Below are positions 36,708-45,229 of a stretch of 64,000 bases of DNA, piece after piece. Source of the stretch: Massilia atriviolacea (GTDB lineage Bacteria; Pseudomonadota; Gammaproteobacteria; Burkholderiales; Burkholderiaceae_D); assembly GCF_003953935.1 (NCBI RefSeq), contig NZ_RXLQ01000004.1, forward strand, positions 372,001 to 436,000. Reading direction: 5' to 3'. A model generated the notes under the pieces. That model did not search any database and was not told the DNA's origin. It saw only the letters and a list, made by a program, of their open reading frames with translations. Position 1 is the stretch's first letter; every line of letters starts with the position of its first letter. The position numbers and the translations under genes are program-made.

Positions 36708-37415
36708 ATGACTATCTCAGACCGCCTCACACACGCGATGGAAGAAGCCGGTTTCCAGTCGCAGAGCGCCTTGGCGCGCGCCTCCGGCGTACCGCAGCCG
36801 ACCATCAACCGCATCCTCAATCGCACTGGCACGCGCGGGCCGGAGGCGGCCACGCTGGCGGCCCTGGCGTCGGCCTGCAAGGTGGCGTTCGAGTGGCTGC
36901 ACGAAGGCACGGGGCCGATGGCGCGCCGTGGGGCCGGCGCGGACGGCTTGCCCGGGGAGATGGCGCCGGTGGTCGTGGCCGAAGACGGCGACCCGCGTTT
37001 CGTGCAGATCAAGATGGTGACCTTGCAGCTGTCGGCGGGCATCAGCGGTTTCCAGACCGATGCGGGGCACGATTCCGGGGCCACCCTGCCGCTCGACCCG
37101 GCCTGGGTGGGGCGCCACAAGTTCATCCCGGAGCGGCTGGTGGCCACGCGCGTGAAGGGCCAGAGCATGGAGCCGACCTTGTACGAGGGCGATATCATCG
37201 TGATCAACACGGCCGACAACCGGCCGGCGGACGGGGTGGTGTTCGCCGTCAATTACGAAGGCGAGGCGGTGGTCAAGCGGCTCTCGCGCGATGCGGGAGA
37301 GTGGTGGCTGGAGTCCGACAATTCCGACAAGCGCAAGTATCACCGCAAGGTCTGCCGGGGCAGCGACTGCATCATCGTGGGACGGGTGGTGCGCAAGGAG
37401 AGTGAGCGGATCTGA
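36708..37415 (+). CDS. XRE-S24 (LexA/CI-like) self-cleaving repressor
   Basis: A 235-residue phage-type repressor: N-terminal HTH (SALARASGVPQPTINRILNRTGTRG) and C-terminal S24 peptidase domain with Ser153 in GQSMEPTL and Lys190 in EAVVKRLS as the catalytic pair. A candidate self-cleavage bond is Ala110-Gly111 (LSAGISGF), at the usual distance before the Ser. It should be inactivated by RecA in the SOS response and release the divergent XRE/holin-like operon. No integrase or virion genes are nearby. Confidence 0.85.
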   Translation: MTISDRLTHAMEEAGFQSQSALARASGVPQPTINRILNRTGTRGPEAATLAALASACKVAFEWLHEGTGPMARRGAGADGLPGEMAPVVVAEDGDPRFVQIKMVTLQLSAGISGFQTDAGHDSGATLPLDPAWVGRHKFIPERLVATRVKGQSMEPTLYEGDIIVINTADNRPADGVVFAVNYEGEAVVKRLSRDAGEWWLESDNSDKRKYHRKVCRGSDCIIVGRVVRKESERI

Positions 37416-38243: not shown

Positions 38244-38317
38244 TGGAGCGGGTGAAGGGAATCGAACCCTCGTCGTAAGCTTGGGAAGCTTCTGCTCTAC
38301 CATTGAGCTACACCCGC
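38244..38317 (-). tRNA. tRNA-Gly (anticodon CCC)
   Basis: A 74-nt cloverleaf on the minus strand. The 7-bp acceptor GCGGGTG/CACCCGC, D arm AGCTCAATGGTAGAGC, anticodon loop TTCCCAA giving CCC, T arm GGGTTCGATTCCC, and an encoded CCA end (38246-38244). It closely resembles the E. coli tRNA-Gly(CCC). It reads GGG codons and lies 85 bp after tRNA-Arg, probably in one transcript. Confidence 0.95.
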
Positions 38318-38402: not shown

Positions 38403-38478
38403 TGGTGCGGCTGGCGGGGATCGAACCCACAACCCTTGGCTTCGGAGGCCAATACTCTATCCATTGAGCTACAGCCGC
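38403..38478 (-). tRNA. tRNA-Arg (anticodon CCG)
   Basis: A 76-nt cloverleaf on the minus strand. Acceptor GCGGCTG/CAGCCGC, anticodon stem TTGGC/GCCAA around loop CTCCGAA giving CCG, T arm GTGGGTTCGATCCCC, and an encoded CCA (38405-38403). It reads CGG codons, which are common in this GC-rich genome. Confidence 0.95.
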
Positions 38479-39886: not shown

Positions 39887-41362
39887 TCATGACAGCGGCG
39901 CCGCCAGTTCGCGCGCCTGGCGGAAACCGTCGACCATCACGCCGAAGGCTTGCGCCTTCATGTCCTCGCCCGGCACGCGCAGGATATACGACGGGTGGTA
40001 CACCACCACCACCCAGCGTCCCTCGTGCAGGAAGGGCTTGCCCAGCACCTCCTTGAGGGTGGCGTGCGGATTGCCGGTCACCGCCTTGAGCGCGGTGCTG
40101 CCGAGGGCAACGACCACCTCGGGCTGGACCTGCTCCAGCTCGCTACTGAGCCAGTAGGCGCAGGCATCGACCTCGCGCTGGGCCGGGGTCTTGTGCATGC
40201 GCCGCTTGCCGCGCGGTTCCCATTTGAAGTGCTTGACGGCATTGGTGAGGTAGATCGCGCGCCGGTCCAGCTCGGCCTTGGCCATGGCGCGGTCCAGCAG
40301 TTGCCCGGCCGGACCGACAAAGGGCAAGCCGGCCAGGTCTTCCTGGTCGCCCGGCTGCTCGCCCACCAGCATGATGCGCGCCGCCTGCGGGCCGACCCCG
40401 CCGACCGCCTGGGTCGCGTGCTGCCACAGTTCGCAGCGGCGGCACTGGTCGAGCGTGGTCGGCGCGTCGCGCTGCGGCTGGGCCTTGTCGGCGGAAATGG
40501 GAATGACGGTGCCGCCGCGCTGCCCCACGCTGTGGGTCTGGCCCACCTTGCGCGCCCCGGCCGCCGCCTGCGACACCATCTCGGGCACGACAGCGCCTTC
40601 GGGCAGGTTTTTCCAGAAGCGCGTGGGGATGTGCCCGTGCATCAGGTCGGCGTTCAGGCGCGCCGGGTTGAAGATGCTGCGGTAATAGGTGAGCCACAGG
40701 GCTTCGCCGGCATCGTCGATGTCTTCGGGGCCGCGCATCAGCGGGCCGGTGCTGTGCAGGGTGGCGCCGTCCCACAGCACGCTGGCCTCGGGCGTGGCGA
40801 TCATCCAGCTGACCTTGCCCATGCGGCTGGTGAAGTGGCGCGCCACCTGCGGCAGCACGTCGTGGGCCGGTTCGAACCAGGCCACGAAACGGGGCGGGCC
40901 GGCGTCTTCGCGCCGTTCGCGGAAACGGATGTAGGCATGCATGTCGTGTTCCTCGCGGTGCACCGCCTTGACCATGGCGTGCAGGCGGGCGCCGTCTTCG
41001 TCGGCGGCCGAGAGCACGTCTTTTTCGCCCTGTTGCCAGCGCCACAGCACGAGATACAGGAAGGCCCAGCGGTTCGGCACGCGGCAGCAGGCCGCGCTTT
41101 GCAGCATGTCCATCAGCTGGCGCGGAATGCGCATGGTGGACTTGCTGTCCGGTTGGACCGCATGCGCGGCCGCCGGTTCCGCGCCCTGCGAAAAAAGATC
41201 GCCATCGTCCTTGTGCGAAATCCATTGCACCGCGTGGGGCGGCACTTTGTGCGCCAGCAAGTCGCGCGCGGCGTGGCGCCATTGCTCGAAGGAATGGACC
41301 AGGACCGGACGCCCCGCCGCGGCGGACGCGGCCGCGCTTACGCCGCCTGCAATTCCGCCCAT
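39887..41362 (-). CDS. UdgX-family uracil-DNA glycosylase fused to DUF4130 (TIGR03915) domain
   Basis: A 491-residue fusion. The N-terminal part (about 18-260) is the DUF4130 'SAM partner' domain. The C-terminal part (about 300-485) is a family-4-like uracil-DNA glycosylase with GEQPGDQED (334-342), Cys pair CRRC (307-310), HPSY (456-459) and the UdgX-specific loop KRRMHKTP (386-393). His390 matches the histidine of mycobacterial UdgX that bonds covalently to the abasic sugar after uracil removal. The start overlaps the end of the radical SAM gene by 25 bp, and both lie behind a LexA box. Confidence 0.92.
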   Translation of the reverse strand: MGGIAGGVSAAASAAAGRPVLVHSFEQWRHAARDLLAHKVPPHAVQWISHKDDGDLFSQGAEPAAAHAVQPDSKSTMRIPRQLMDMLQSAACCRVPNRWAFLYLVLWRWQQGEKDVLSAADEDGARLHAMVKAVHREEHDMHAYIRFRERREDAGPPRFVAWFEPAHDVLPQVARHFTSRMGKVSWMIATPEASVLWDGATLHSTGPLMRGPEDIDDAGEALWLTYYRSIFNPARLNADLMHGHIPTRFWKNLPEGAVVPEMVSQAAAGARKVGQTHSVGQRGGTVIPISADKAQPQRDAPTTLDQCRRCELWQHATQAVGGVGPQAARIMLVGEQPGDQEDLAGLPFVGPAGQLLDRAMAKAELDRRAIYLTNAVKHFKWEPRGKRRMHKTPAQREVDACAYWLSSELEQVQPEVVVALGSTALKAVTGNPHATLKEVLGKPFLHEGRWVVVVYHPSYILRVPGEDMKAQAFGVMVDGFRQARELAAPLS

Positions 41363-42570
41363 AAATCCAGCTGCCGAGGTGAATGCTCGGCCATCGAGCG
41401 GCGCAGGACCTCGGACGCGGTGGTGTCCGAGGCCGGCCGGTAGTCGGCCGTGACGATGAAGGGGGCGATTTTTTTCATGCTGCAGCGCAGGCGGGTCAGG
41501 TCGGCGTAGCGGATGCGGCGCAGGCGGCGCAGTTCCACCAGCCGCTTGGCGTTGCGCAGGCCGATGCCCGGAATGCGCGCGATCATCGTCTCGTCGGCCA
41601 TGTTCAGGTCCATCGGGAAATGCTCGCGGTGCGCCAGCGCCCAGGCCAGCTTGGGGTCGATGTCGAGCGCCAGGTTGCCGGCCGCCGGCAGCAGTTCGGC
41701 CGCGTTGAAGCCATAGCCGCGCATCAGGAAGTCGGCCTGGTACAGCCGGTGTTCGCGCTGCATGGGCGGCGGCGCCAGCGGCACGCTGTCGGGGCTCTGC
41801 GGGATCGGGCTGAAGGCCGAATAGTAGACGCGCTTGAGCTTGTAGCTGCCGTACAGGGTTTCGGCGGTGTTGAGGATGGTCTGGTCGTCGCTGGCGTCGG
41901 CGCCGACGATCATCTGCGTGCTCTGCCCGGCCGGCGCGAACTTGGACGCGCGCGGCTCTTCGGCCTTTTCGTCGAGCTTGCGGCGGATCGAGCCCATCGC
42001 CAGCTTGATGGTGTGCACGCTTTTTTCGGGCGCCAGGCGCGTGATGCTGCCTTCGGTCGGCAGCTCGATGTTGACGCTGAGCCGGTCGGCATACTTGCCG
42101 GCGGCCGCGATCAGGGCGGCGTCGGCGTCGGGAATGGTCTTGAGGTGGATATAGCCACGGAAGTTGTGGACTTCGCGCAACTGGCGCGCGATCGCCACCA
42201 ATTGCTCCATGGTGTAGTCGGCCGACTGGATGATGCCGGAACTGAGGAACAGGCCATCGATATAGTTGCGCAGGTAAAAATCGACAGTCAGCTTGACCAC
42301 TTCATCGACCGAAAAGCGCGCGCGCGGCACGTTGGACGTGCGCCGGTTGACGCAGTACTGGCAGTCGTAGACGCAAAAATTGGTCAGCAGGATCTTGAGC
42401 AGGGACACGCAGCGCCCGTCCGGCGTATAGCTGTGGCAGATGCCCATGCCGTTGGTGGCGCCGATGCCGTCCTTGCCCTCCGACGAACGCCTGGGCGCGC
42501 CGCTGCTGGCGCAGGAAGCGTCGTATTTGGCCGCATCGGCGAGGATTTCGAGCTTGTCGGTCAGTTCCAT
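41338..42570 (-). CDS. Putative DNA modification/repair radical SAM protein (TIGR03916)
   Basis: A 410-residue enzyme with the radical SAM cluster C-x3-C-x2-C (Cys66, Cys70, Cys73 in CVYDCQYC) and a C-terminal helix-hairpin-helix (DETMIARIPGIGLRNAKRLVELRRLRRI) that suggests DNA binding. An extra Cys-rich segment lies at residues 20-54. The family is found with DUF4130/UdgX proteins and is predicted to act on damaged DNA, but the reaction is unknown. The start at 42570 is the only ATG before a stop-free region covered by the neighbouring gene; a perfect LexA box ends 16 bp upstream. Confidence 0.92.
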   Translation of the reverse strand: MELTDKLEILADAAKYDASCASSGAPRRSSEGKDGIGATNGMGICHSYTPDGRCVSLLKILLTNFCVYDCQYCVNRRTSNVPRARFSVDEVVKLTVDFYLRNYIDGLFLSSGIIQSADYTMEQLVAIARQLREVHNFRGYIHLKTIPDADAALIAAAGKYADRLSVNIELPTEGSITRLAPEKSVHTIKLAMGSIRRKLDEKAEEPRASKFAPAGQSTQMIVGADASDDQTILNTAETLYGSYKLKRVYYSAFSPIPQSPDSVPLAPPPMQREHRLYQADFLMRGYGFNAAELLPAAGNLALDIDPKLAWALAHREHFPMDLNMADETMIARIPGIGLRNAKRLVELRRLRRIRYADLTRLRCSMKKIAPFIVTADYRPASDTTASEVLRRSMAEHSPRQLDLWAELQAA

Positions 42571-42585
42571 GGGCTTGGCGCTCAA

Positions 42586-42601
42586 CTGTATATATATACA
42601 G
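42586..42601. promoter_or_regulatory. LexA (SOS) box of the radical SAM/UdgX operon
   Basis: CTGTATATATATACAG, a perfect CTGT-N8-ACAG palindrome with the alternating AT core of the strongest E. coli LexA sites. It lies 15 bp upstream of the radical SAM ATG and overlaps the TATATA sequence that would serve as -10, so LexA would block transcription directly. Confidence 0.9.
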
Positions 42602-42683: not shown

Positions 42684-44900
42684 TCAGGCGCGCTTGGCCT
42701 GCGGCACGCTGGCGCGGCAGGCCGCCAGCTGCGCTTCCTGCTCCTGCAGCACGTCGAGGAAGCGCCCCAGCGACACCGGATGGTGGAACAGGTAGCCCTG
42801 CATGGTCAGGCAGCCGTTCGACTTGAGGTAGCGCGCCTGCACCTCGGTTTCCACGCCTTCGGCGATCAGGTGCAGGCCGAGGCCGCGCGCGATCGAGATG
42901 ATCGCCAGGATCACCGGATAATGTCCCTGCTCGTCGTGGATTTCCTTCACAAACGACTGGTCGATCTTGATCGTGTGGATCGGGAAGCGGTGCAGGTAGG
43001 ACAGCGACGAATAACCGGTGCCGAAATCGTCGATCGCCACCGACACGCCCAGCTGGCACAGTTTGTTCAACTGCTCGATCGCGTACTGCGGATTGCGGAT
43101 GCAGATATTCTCGGTGATTTCGACTTCGATCTGGGCCGGCGAAATCCCGTAGCGCAGCAGCGCGCCGCGCATCTTCTCGAAAAAGTCGCCGCGGTCCAGG
43201 TATTGCGGCGACAAGTTCAAGGACAGGCGGATCGCCTCGCCGCCGTTCTCGTTCCAGACCAGCATGTCGCGGCACAGGGCGCCCAGCATCCAGTCCGAAA
43301 TCGGCAGCATCAGGCCATTGTCTTCGGCGAAGGGCAGGAACTCGTTGGCGGTCAGGAGGCCGCGCTGCGGATGGTTCCAGCGCATCAGCCCCTCGGCGCC
43401 GATGATGCGCCCGGTGATCACGTCGATCTGCGGCTGGTAGTACATTTCCAGCTCGTTCTGTTCGAGCGCCTTGCGCAGGCTCTGTTCGAGCGCGATCTTC
43501 TGGTGCGACACGTCGAGCATCGAGTTGTGATAAAAACTGTGGCCGTTCTTGCCCAGCGCCTTGACCTGGTACATGGCGATGTCGGCATGGCGCAGCAGTT
43601 CGTCGATCGACTCGCCGTCGCCCGGATAGATGGCGATGCCGATGCTGGCCGAAATGTGCACCTGGTGCCCATCGAGGTCGAACGGCAGGTGCAGGCAGGC
43701 CAGGAACTTCTCGGCGATGGCTTGCGCTTCGCCGCGTCCGGCCAGTTCCGGCAGCACGATGGTGAATTCGTCGCCGCCCTGGCGCGCCAGGGTGTCGCCC
43801 TCGCGCAGGCATTGCTTCAGGCGCAGCGCGACCTGCTGCAGCAGCTCGTCGCCCTTGACGTGGCCGAGCGTGTCGTTGACCAGCTTGAAGCGGTCGAGGT
43901 CGATGAACATCACGGCCAGCTCGGTCAGCTTGCGCTTGGCCTGGATGATGGCCAGCCCGAGGCGGTCCTTGAACAGCATGCGGTTCGGCAGGTCGGTCAG
44001 GATGTCGTGGTAGGCCTGGTACGAAATCACTTCCTCGGCGCGCTTGCGGTCGGTGATGTCGCGCGCCACGCCGTAGGTGCCGTAGAACTCCAGCTTCTTG
44101 ACGTCGTTGTCCGGCACATGCATGCCCATCGAATTGAGCGAGATCGTCATCAGGGTGGTGTTGAACTCGCGGTCCTGGCCGGCGCGCGCATGGCACTTCA
44201 GGCGCAGTTCGACATTGCGCGAGGCGCGCTCGTCGACGCGGCGTTCGTTGAAGGCATAGCGCGCGCGCTCCAGGTCCTCGTCGTGCACCAGGATCGTGTA
44301 GTGCTGGCCGATCAGGTCTTCGCGCGTAAAGCCCAGCAGCTGGAAGGCGCGGTCGTTGACGAAGGTGAAGCGGCCCTCGTGATTGAGGGTGTAGATGATG
44401 TCGGGCGAACTGTCGACCAGGTAGCGGTACAGCTTTTCGGAGTTTTCCAGCTGCGAGGCGATGCGCTCGTTGTCGTGGGCCAGGCTGCGCTGCTGCAGCG
44501 CGTTGCCGACCGTCTTGAGCATCTCTTCGCGGCTGTAGGGCTTGCGCAGGTAATCGTAGGCGCCGCGCTTGAGGGCGCCGATGGCCGCTTCGATGCCGAC
44601 GTCGCCGCTCATCACGATCACGTCGGCGTCGATCTCGCGCTCGTTGATGAAGTCCATGATCTCATGGCCGCTCATGTCGGGCAGGCGCAGGTCGAGCAGC
44701 ACCAGGTCGAAGCGCCGCCCGCTCAGCTGCGCCAGCGCCTCGGCGCCGCTTTTGGCGGTCACCAGTTCGAAGCCGCGGTCGCGCAGCAGCTCGTGCAGCG
44801 CCGACAGCAGGCGCGGTTCGTCGTCGATCAGCAGGATGCGCGGCAGCGCGTCGCTCCCGGCCTCGGTCGGCAACAGCGCGCTGGCAGGATGGTCGTTCAT
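42684..44900 (-). CDS. Response regulator with PAS, GGDEF and EAL domains (c-di-GMP turnover)
   Basis: A 738-residue cytoplasmic protein: REC (about 20-135, phospho-acceptor Asp70), PAS (about 150-290), GGDEF (about 305-465, intact RQGGDEF active-site loop) and EAL (about 475-730). The EAL signature reads EGL (GAEGLMRW), but the catalytic Glu and the DDFGTGYSS, KIDQSFV and EGVET motifs are kept, so both cyclase and phosphodiesterase activity are possible. No histidine kinase is next to it, so the phosphodonor is unknown. The start at 44900 has a GGCTCC-type weak site. Confidence 0.95.
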   Translation of the reverse strand: MNDHPASALLPTEAGSDALPRILLIDDEPRLLSALHELLRDRGFELVTAKSGAEALAQLSGRRFDLVLLDLRLPDMSGHEIMDFINEREIDADVIVMSGDVGIEAAIGALKRGAYDYLRKPYSREEMLKTVGNALQQRSLAHDNERIASQLENSEKLYRYLVDSSPDIIYTLNHEGRFTFVNDRAFQLLGFTREDLIGQHYTILVHDEDLERARYAFNERRVDERASRNVELRLKCHARAGQDREFNTTLMTISLNSMGMHVPDNDVKKLEFYGTYGVARDITDRKRAEEVISYQAYHDILTDLPNRMLFKDRLGLAIIQAKRKLTELAVMFIDLDRFKLVNDTLGHVKGDELLQQVALRLKQCLREGDTLARQGGDEFTIVLPELAGRGEAQAIAEKFLACLHLPFDLDGHQVHISASIGIAIYPGDGESIDELLRHADIAMYQVKALGKNGHSFYHNSMLDVSHQKIALEQSLRKALEQNELEMYYQPQIDVITGRIIGAEGLMRWNHPQRGLLTANEFLPFAEDNGLMLPISDWMLGALCRDMLVWNENGGEAIRLSLNLSPQYLDRGDFFEKMRGALLRYGISPAQIEVEITENICIRNPQYAIEQLNKLCQLGVSVAIDDFGTGYSSLSYLHRFPIHTIKIDQSFVKEIHDEQGHYPVILAIISIARGLGLHLIAEGVETEVQARYLKSNGCLTMQGYLFHHPVSLGRFLDVLQEQEAQLAACRASVPQAKRA

Positions 44901-45229
44901 TGGAGCCTTAACCGGAATCCATGGTCCGCATCCGCCCCGCGCCCTGGCCCGGCCGGCGCGCAAAACTGTGGGGCCAGGGCGCGCCCTGGCCGTGTGCGAA
45001 GATGCTTGTCCGAATGCTGCATGGTGTCGAAAACTGCCGCCAAATGGTCGATGGTTGGAGGTGGCGCACAAGCCGATGCGGCCACGACGAATGGATCACA
45101 CACCTGGCGCGCGCGCGATTTGGACAGCGTGTCAGGTTTAAAAAACGGCTATCTTAGCATATATGCACGAATGTTGACCCGAGGAACGTTACTCAAAGCA
45201 AAACTTTTATTGTCAAGTGTTGTGATTGC
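44901..45229. other. 329-bp intergenic region upstream of the REC-GGDEF-EAL gene
   Basis: No gene is seen. It holds a perfect 20-bp palindrome (44972-44991) and an AT-rich stretch (about 45138-45220) that could hold promoter elements for the minus-strand signalling gene. The flanking MFS gene ends at 45230 on the same strand. Confidence 0.5.
44972..44991. repeat. Perfect 20-bp palindrome
   Basis: GGCCAGGGCG followed by its exact reverse complement, no spacer. It lies 72 bp before the GGDEF/EAL start and could be an operator or an RNA hairpin in the 5' leader. A related GCGCCCTGG stretch lies just upstream at about 44938-44948. Confidence 0.7.

Follow-up and report, generated by a model that had tools for sequence, protein, structure and literature searches.

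A two-gene operon behind a LexA-type box

The window analyzed here is a 64-kb stretch of the Massilia atriviolacea genome (contig NZ_RXLQ01000004.1), and all coordinates are given in its positions. Its minus strand carries an operon of two overlapping genes, the first encoding a radical S-adenosylmethionine (SAM) protein, P0002, and the second a fusion protein, P0001, in which a DUF4130 domain is followed by a uracil-DNA glycosylase (UDG) of the UdgX class (Table 1). The perfect palindrome CTGTATATATATACAG, a LexA-type (SOS) box, lies 15 nt ahead of the radical SAM start codon (ATG at 42570, minus strand). Both the box and the 25-nt overlap had been described in a sequence-only reading of this DNA and were confirmed.

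Allowing up to three mismatches, CTGTATATATATACAG has no other match in the 64 kb, with 0.00 matches expected from 100 shuffles. The looser pattern CTGT-N8-ACAG also matches the window once, with 0.61 matches expected by chance, and is therefore unremarkable on its own. The host genome (7.36 Mb, 80 contigs) contains 38 such sites, compared with 20 for the reversed pattern. Two of them stand just upstream of its one LexA gene over cut-off, and one precedes each of the recA, dnaE2 and dinB starts; recN at locus L006, about 1 kb from a box, was left out of the controlled genes. Because lexA, recA, dnaE2 and dinB carry the motif, it is very probably the one that host LexA reads. Chance occurrence of the operon box was rejected, both on the shuffle expectation and on its conservation in relatives relative to control windows (see below). 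SOS control of the operon, as the sequence-only reading proposed, is thus well supported by sequence. Predicted folding of the promoter DNA was uninformative (z -1.85). A second radical SAM gene of the host, a member of the PA0069 family (472 bits), starts 4 nt behind a CTGT-N8-ACAG box of its own (L014, contig C74, position 17030).

P0002 matches TIGR03916 with 542.2 bits (cut-off 343.5), a family that we take to be the same as COG4277, and has the CX3CX2C motif of radical SAM enzymes (C66, C70, C73). Three further cysteines, C20, C45 and C54, are kept in 62 of 63 aligned sequences, the remaining one being gapped there, which suggests a second iron-sulfur cluster. The sequence-only reading had also placed a helix-hairpin-helix (HhH) in this protein. 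The match is weak: a profile of 47 relatives compared with solved chains matches ComEA and RuvA in this region (E 0.009-0.5), and Pfam HHH_5, whose gathering score is 27, reaches 20.6 bits. When solved structures were searched by sequence, the matches listed included HydG, HydE and lysine aminomutase, each of them weak (E >0.1); by fold, HydE, lipoyl synthase and HydG ranked first. Spore photoproduct lyase was not among the matches listed in either search, which does not exclude a relation to it.

P0001 passes the cut-offs of TIGR03915 (206.9 bits, cut-off 112.25), PF13566 (123.4, cut-off 27) and TIGR03914 (250.4, cut-off 189.95). Its UdgX part shares 46% identity over 186 residues with UdgX of M. 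smegmatis (PDB 6ail, 6iod and others), including motif A GEQPGD, the R-loop KRR(I/M)H and TNAVKHF. The loop KRRMHKTP, in which the sequence-only reading recognized the covalent-type His390, indeed aligns with the KRRIH loop of that protein. The published UdgX signature includes an R-loop with R107 and H109 (PMC10359453); R388 and H390 align with these residues, and H390 is present in 35/35 fused sequences. So is Q336, which corresponds to the glutamine at position 53 of the GEQPG signature. Motif B reads HPSYILR here, compared with HPS(S/A)(L/V)(L/V)R in UdgX: H, P, S, one L and R are kept, and positions 4 and 5 differ. C307, C310 and C401, also found in 35/35 fused sequences, are three cysteines to be set against the 4Fe-4S cluster of UdgX. 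A UdgX-type active site in P0001 has good support from sequence. What distinguishes P0001 from the M. smegmatis protein, besides motif B, is its fusion behind DUF4130 and its place in an SOS operon. For DUF4130 itself, a profile of 20 sequences retrieved one solved chain at E 0.18, which is not credible, and the fold-search lists for the fusion protein were filled by the UDG part.

Table 1. Features of the radical SAM/DUF4130-UdgX operon in the window.
Feature	Position	Strand	Basis or remark
LexA (SOS) box CTGTATATATATACAG	42586..42601	.	perfect palindrome
P0002 radical SAM protein, 410 aa, TIGR03916 rSAM_link_UDG	41338..42570	-	open reading frame and family match
Radical SAM cluster motif CVYDCQYC (C66, C70, C73)	42352..42375	-	sequence and alignment
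Span with three further invariant cysteines (C20, C45, C54)	42409..42513	-	putative auxiliary iron-sulfur cluster
HhH-like C-terminal region, aa 304-346	41533..41661	-	weak match
25-nt overlap of reading frames	41338..41362	-	predicted translational coupling
P0001 DUF4130-UdgX fusion, 491 aa	39887..41362	-	open reading frame and family matches
DUF4130 / TIGR03915 domain, aa 23-255	40598..41296	-	family match
UdgX domain TIGR03914, aa 262-477	39932..40579	-	family match
UdgX R-loop KRRMH with His390	40193..40207	-	alignment; His390 in 35/35 fused sequences of alignment A3

Distribution of the box and of the three families

Within the host family, 38 of 145 sampled genomes carry the radical SAM gene over cut-off. 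An exact box was found within 250 nt upstream in 28 of the 30 loci fetched (the host genome included), in 27 of the 30 at a distance of 10-32 nt from the start. We then compared the best 80 of 589 relatives from a scan of GTDB species genomes (L053-L132), which by record title fall into 56 beta/gamma, 16 alpha and 7 xanthomonad loci, the last group including Rhodanobacter and Luteibacter, plus one locus from Akkermansiaceae. In the 46 nt upstream of the beta/gamma genes the box is exact at 42/56 loci and has at most one mismatch at 54/56; the corresponding figures for control windows are 1/9795 and 45/9795. Alpha loci show GTTC-N7-GTTC or GAAC-N7-GAAC, the alphaproteobacterial type of LexA motif, within 120 nt upstream in 15 of 16 cases (controls 2/946).

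The xanthomonad loci were at first viewed as having no box, a view that was dropped once another palindrome, GTCTCA-N5-TGAGAC, turned up at one fixed position in five of the seven (L110, L112, L122, L126, L128). The same palindrome precedes uvrA (identified by its Pfam UvrA domains) in two genomes of this group (L181, L189), and its core TCTCA-N5-TGAGA has 1-9 copies in each of 8 genomes, where the reversed pattern used as control has 0-1. Among lexA genes of the xanthomonad group, six show TTAG-N6-TACTA and four lexA2-like genes show GTGTACAAATGTACAC. Judged from these motifs, damage control looks rebuilt in different clades, an SOS reading that leaves out the xanthomonads; the differing motifs are therefore an argument for strong selection on damage control.

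The three families were searched in 249 Pseudomonadota genomes, where only matches over cut-off were counted and the tallies ignore shared ancestry. The radical SAM family was found in 56 genomes, DUF4130 in 59 and UdgX in 55. DUF4130 is present in 56/56 radical SAM genomes, and only three genomes have it without the radical SAM gene (G328, G376 and G317, the last with its match 1.2 kb away from the end of a contig). Among the control genomes, Caulobacter vibrioides scores over the TIGR03915 cut-off and also gives a TIGR03916 signal. UdgX is over cut-off in 43/56 radical SAM genomes versus 12/193 others, so that 13 of the 56 radical SAM-DUF4130 pairs come without it. Ten genomes have UdgX with neither partner and two have it with DUF4130 alone. 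At the best 80 loci, UdgX is fused to DUF4130 in 41.

The box is also kept in operons that lack the glycosylase. Beta/gamma operons that carry the fusion have an exact box in 21/22 cases; those lacking UdgX have it in 21/33, and in 32/33 with at most one mismatch, with one further locus, L095, ending before the second gene and showing a box with one mismatch. In the 12 UdgX-less beta/gamma loci whose box is not exact, the last half-site keeps its position and reads CCAG in seven (L068, L085, L087, L091, L094, L100, L107) and TCAG in four (L097, L102, L103, L106). Stand-alone UdgX loci, from the ten genomes above and as second copies in G187, G352 and G360, lack an exact box in 12 of 13 cases, where only exact CTGT-N8-ACAG, GTTC-N7-GTTC and GAAC-N7-GAAC were scored and other LexA motifs or boxes with one mismatch count as lacking. 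The only stand-alone UdgX locus with an exact box is L227 (G215, contig C1), with an alpha-type box just before UdgX. Next to UdgX, G215 retains a stop-containing remnant of DUF4130, and this genome has no radical SAM gene over cut-off; the locus looks as if a deletion had put UdgX under the old SOS promoter.

Because UdgX-less operons keep the box and stand-alone UdgX genes are mostly without it, the box follows the radical SAM-DUF4130 pair and UdgX is optional. By these comparisons the pair is the predicted damage-controlled constant unit and UdgX an accessory. The sequence-only reading had named DUF4130 and given it no mechanistic part, though it is the constant partner.

A predicted lesion-processing unit and its rivals

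The pair is also associated with the translesion polymerase DnaE2. A dnaE2 gene over cut-off is present in 48/56 radical SAM genomes versus 69/193 others (Fisher p 2e-11, phylogeny ignored). Genes for ImuB and DnaE2 lie divergent from the operon at 9 of the best 80 loci (titled Bradyrhizobium, Tardiphaga, Hyphomicrobiales or Rhizobiales); three relatives of these nine have <500 nt of upstream sequence. In four genomes of one family, picked because dnaE2 adjoins the operon (L238-L241), dnaE2 directly follows UdgX on the same strand. At L238 a possible dnaE2 ATG is one base behind the UdgX stop, L238 and L240 have an ImuB-like gene upstream of the operon as well, and the UdgX match of L241 is partial. 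The name ImuB is the label of the host-genome query, which has Pfam IMS and no NCBIfam match. In the host itself the dnaE2 box is of the same type as the operon box. At L241, a SplB-like gene diverges from the radical SAM operon across one alpha-type box.

We give roughly an even chance to the reading that the radical SAM-DUF4130 pair is a damage-induced enzyme for lesion processing, that it works alongside the ImuB-DnaE2 mutasome, and that UdgX is an optional addition to it. LexA would hold the box shut until RecA-driven cleavage opens it. The radical SAM protein would then most likely direct a 5'-deoxyadenosyl radical at a damaged or modified DNA base. For this it would have its radical SAM cluster and a second one, probably ligated by C20/C45/C54, and its HhH-like tail would engage the DNA. 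DUF4130 would serve as a partner for DNA handling or for a second step, and the pair would act at sites also served by the SOS-induced ImuB-DnaE2 polymerase. UdgX, by homology, would excise uracil and then shield the abasic site left behind by bonding to it through His390. A more specific version, tentative and clearly the less probable, makes the two-cluster enzyme and DUF4130 the lesion-processing arm of the mutasome itself, repairing or rewriting the base at the polymerase site while UdgX caps stray uracil or abasic sites.

Several observations weigh against this reading. On the regulatory side, L019 and L020 of the host family have no box, that of L038 is 167 nt from the start, the CTGT box is found in none of the seven xanthomonad loci, and neither motif, CTGT or alpha-type, was seen at the Akkermansiaceae locus (L127). 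Nor are the two genes always neighbours: about 3 kb separates them in G336 and G344, and at L167, on a fecal contig listed among phages, the 3.2 kb that follow the radical SAM gene gave no tblastn match to DUF4130. A dnaE2 gene over cut-off is missing from eight of the 56 radical SAM genomes (in one of these, G198, it is in two pieces), no DnaE2 was found within the approximately 4 kb compared at the other 71 of the best 80 loci, and in the host genome the operon and dnaE2 are on different contigs (C34 and C45). Finally, the structure model has pLDDT <50 around C20, C45 and C54, the HHH_5 score is below threshold, and the role proposed for DUF4130 is a guess, as the domain has no known fold or activity.

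Among the alternatives, the one that survives best, unlikely as we consider it, is that the radical SAM protein directly reverses a UV photoproduct in the manner of spore photoproduct lyase, with DUF4130 as a lesion binder. DUF4130 has been grouped with "SplB-like radical SAM photolyases" (PMC3765255), SOS regulation of SplB is reported for several species (PMC8565304), and the host's PA0069-type radical SAM gene has an SOS box. Against it, structure searches list HydG, HydE and lysine aminomutase (weak) and lipoyl synthase rather than spore photoproduct lyase, which does not exclude the latter. Marginally less probable is a mutagenesis or DNA-modification enzyme that alters bases such as thymine under SOS, to change coding or to help DnaE2 bypass. 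This was proposed in a figure legend of 2013 (PMC3765255) and agrees with the position of the operon ahead of dnaE2, which at two loci is accompanied by an ImuB-like gene on the operon's opposite flank; however, no such activity is known, and linkage to the polymerase fits lesion repair equally well.

The sequence-only reading had proposed a two-step system, in which the radical enzyme prepares or repairs a lesion that UdgX marks or caps. As an obligate pathway, this would mean that the radical SAM protein generates or uncovers an abasic site or one resembling uracil, to which UdgX then attaches covalently as a cap. The enrichment of UdgX in radical SAM genomes and its frequent fusion to DUF4130 speak for such an obligate pathway. 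We rejected it as the basic unit, for which it is unsupported, and consider it improbable overall, since 13 of 56 pairs lack UdgX, UdgX-less operons keep the box, ten genomes have UdgX with neither partner, and an exact box is absent from 12 of 13 stand-alone UdgX loci. Somewhat more doubtful still is a radical SAM protein that acts on RNA or a nucleotide and is merely co-induced: the solved folds listed near it have proteins, cofactors, RNA (MiaB, RlmN) or nucleotides (viperin) as their substrates, but the SOS-type promoters, the fusion of UdgX to the partner and the mutasome linkage point to DNA. That the pair resolves a stable UdgX-DNA crosslink would account for co-occurrence and fusion, and is very improbable given the same UdgX-less pairs and partnerless UdgX genomes.

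Genomic context, known systems and implications

A gene for a response regulator with PAS, GGDEF and EAL domains (42684-45071, minus strand) lies directly upstream of the operon on the same strand and ends 82 nt ahead of the box. On the other side, 2.5 kb from the operon end, is a phage-repressor-like gene encoding a helix-turn-helix and an S24 peptidase (36708-37415, plus strand; PF00717 72.7 bits, LexA score far below cut-off), with tRNA-Gly(CCC) (38244-38317) and tRNA-Arg(CCG) (38403-38478), both on the minus strand, about 1 kb from it. PADLOC gave no family at E <=1 for P0001 or P0002, and an anti-phage defence role was set aside. Ten records of phage collections matched, and viral_contigs gave 2 relatives among 39 pattern hits. 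One record, "Acinetobacter phage MD-2021a" (CAKLQH020000003.1, L165), has glyS, glyQ and other bacterial-type genes beside its radical SAM-DUF4130 pair and is probably a bacterial contig filed as phage; the three other records retrieved carry no annotation. Relatives of P0002 (E <=1e-20) are encoded by 158 of 72,556 plasmid records, 142 of them non-mobilizable and many from Phaeobacter and Paracoccus; the operon is found on secondary replicons in several genera.

The link between these families is already recorded in the NCBIfam names TIGR03914 (UdgX family), TIGR03915 (SAM_7_link_chp) and TIGR03916 (rSAM_link_UDG), from which the Massilia proteins show no real difference. The descriptions of TIGR03915 and TIGR03916 assign no reaction, in agreement with the sequence-only reading for the radical SAM family. 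SOS control of a two-gene UDG-COG4277 operon (COG1573-COG4277) has been published as well: the accessible part of that paper gives evidence for LexA-type regulation in Bacteroidetes, cites Verrucomicrobia and Alphaproteobacteria, and infers a base-excision role (PMC8565304). The Massilia operon is a further member, which adds Massilia and its kin, where the box is of the CTGT-N8-ACAG type. That part of the paper mentions neither DUF4130 nor the UdgX class. In the figure legend of the 2013 paper on SRAP and ImuB-C, DUF4130 is predicted to be an enzyme related to mutagenesis and is linked with SplB-like radical SAM proteins and with UDGs; the portion of the paper at hand contains no box conservation, no comparison of UdgX-less with UdgX-only loci and no extra cysteines (PMC3765255). 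As for the ImuB-DnaE2 mutasome, its dnaE2 gene shares the box type of the operon here and neighbours the operon in some alphaproteobacteria, whereas it is a separate locus in the host genome. Literature lying largely outside subscription journals yielded no paper on UdgX and radical SAM proteins together and one each on DUF4130 and COG4277, which is no proof of absence. The excerpts examined contain no case of a translesion polymerase coupled to radical chemistry on DNA; SOS-regulated radical SAM proteins of the SplB type are known, uncoupled.

In the literature searched, UdgX figures chiefly as a tool or as an object of biochemistry, and the accessible parts of two UdgX papers give it no role in the cell. 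That SOS control tracks radical SAM-DUF4130 and not UdgX shows which gene to target first, and UdgX-less Pseudomonas offers a background in which the core function can be studied by itself. Two leads can be tested directly, the three extra cysteines and the imuB-dnaE2 setting. The operon is real, conserved and well placed in repair, and the pathway first proposed for it is to be turned round.

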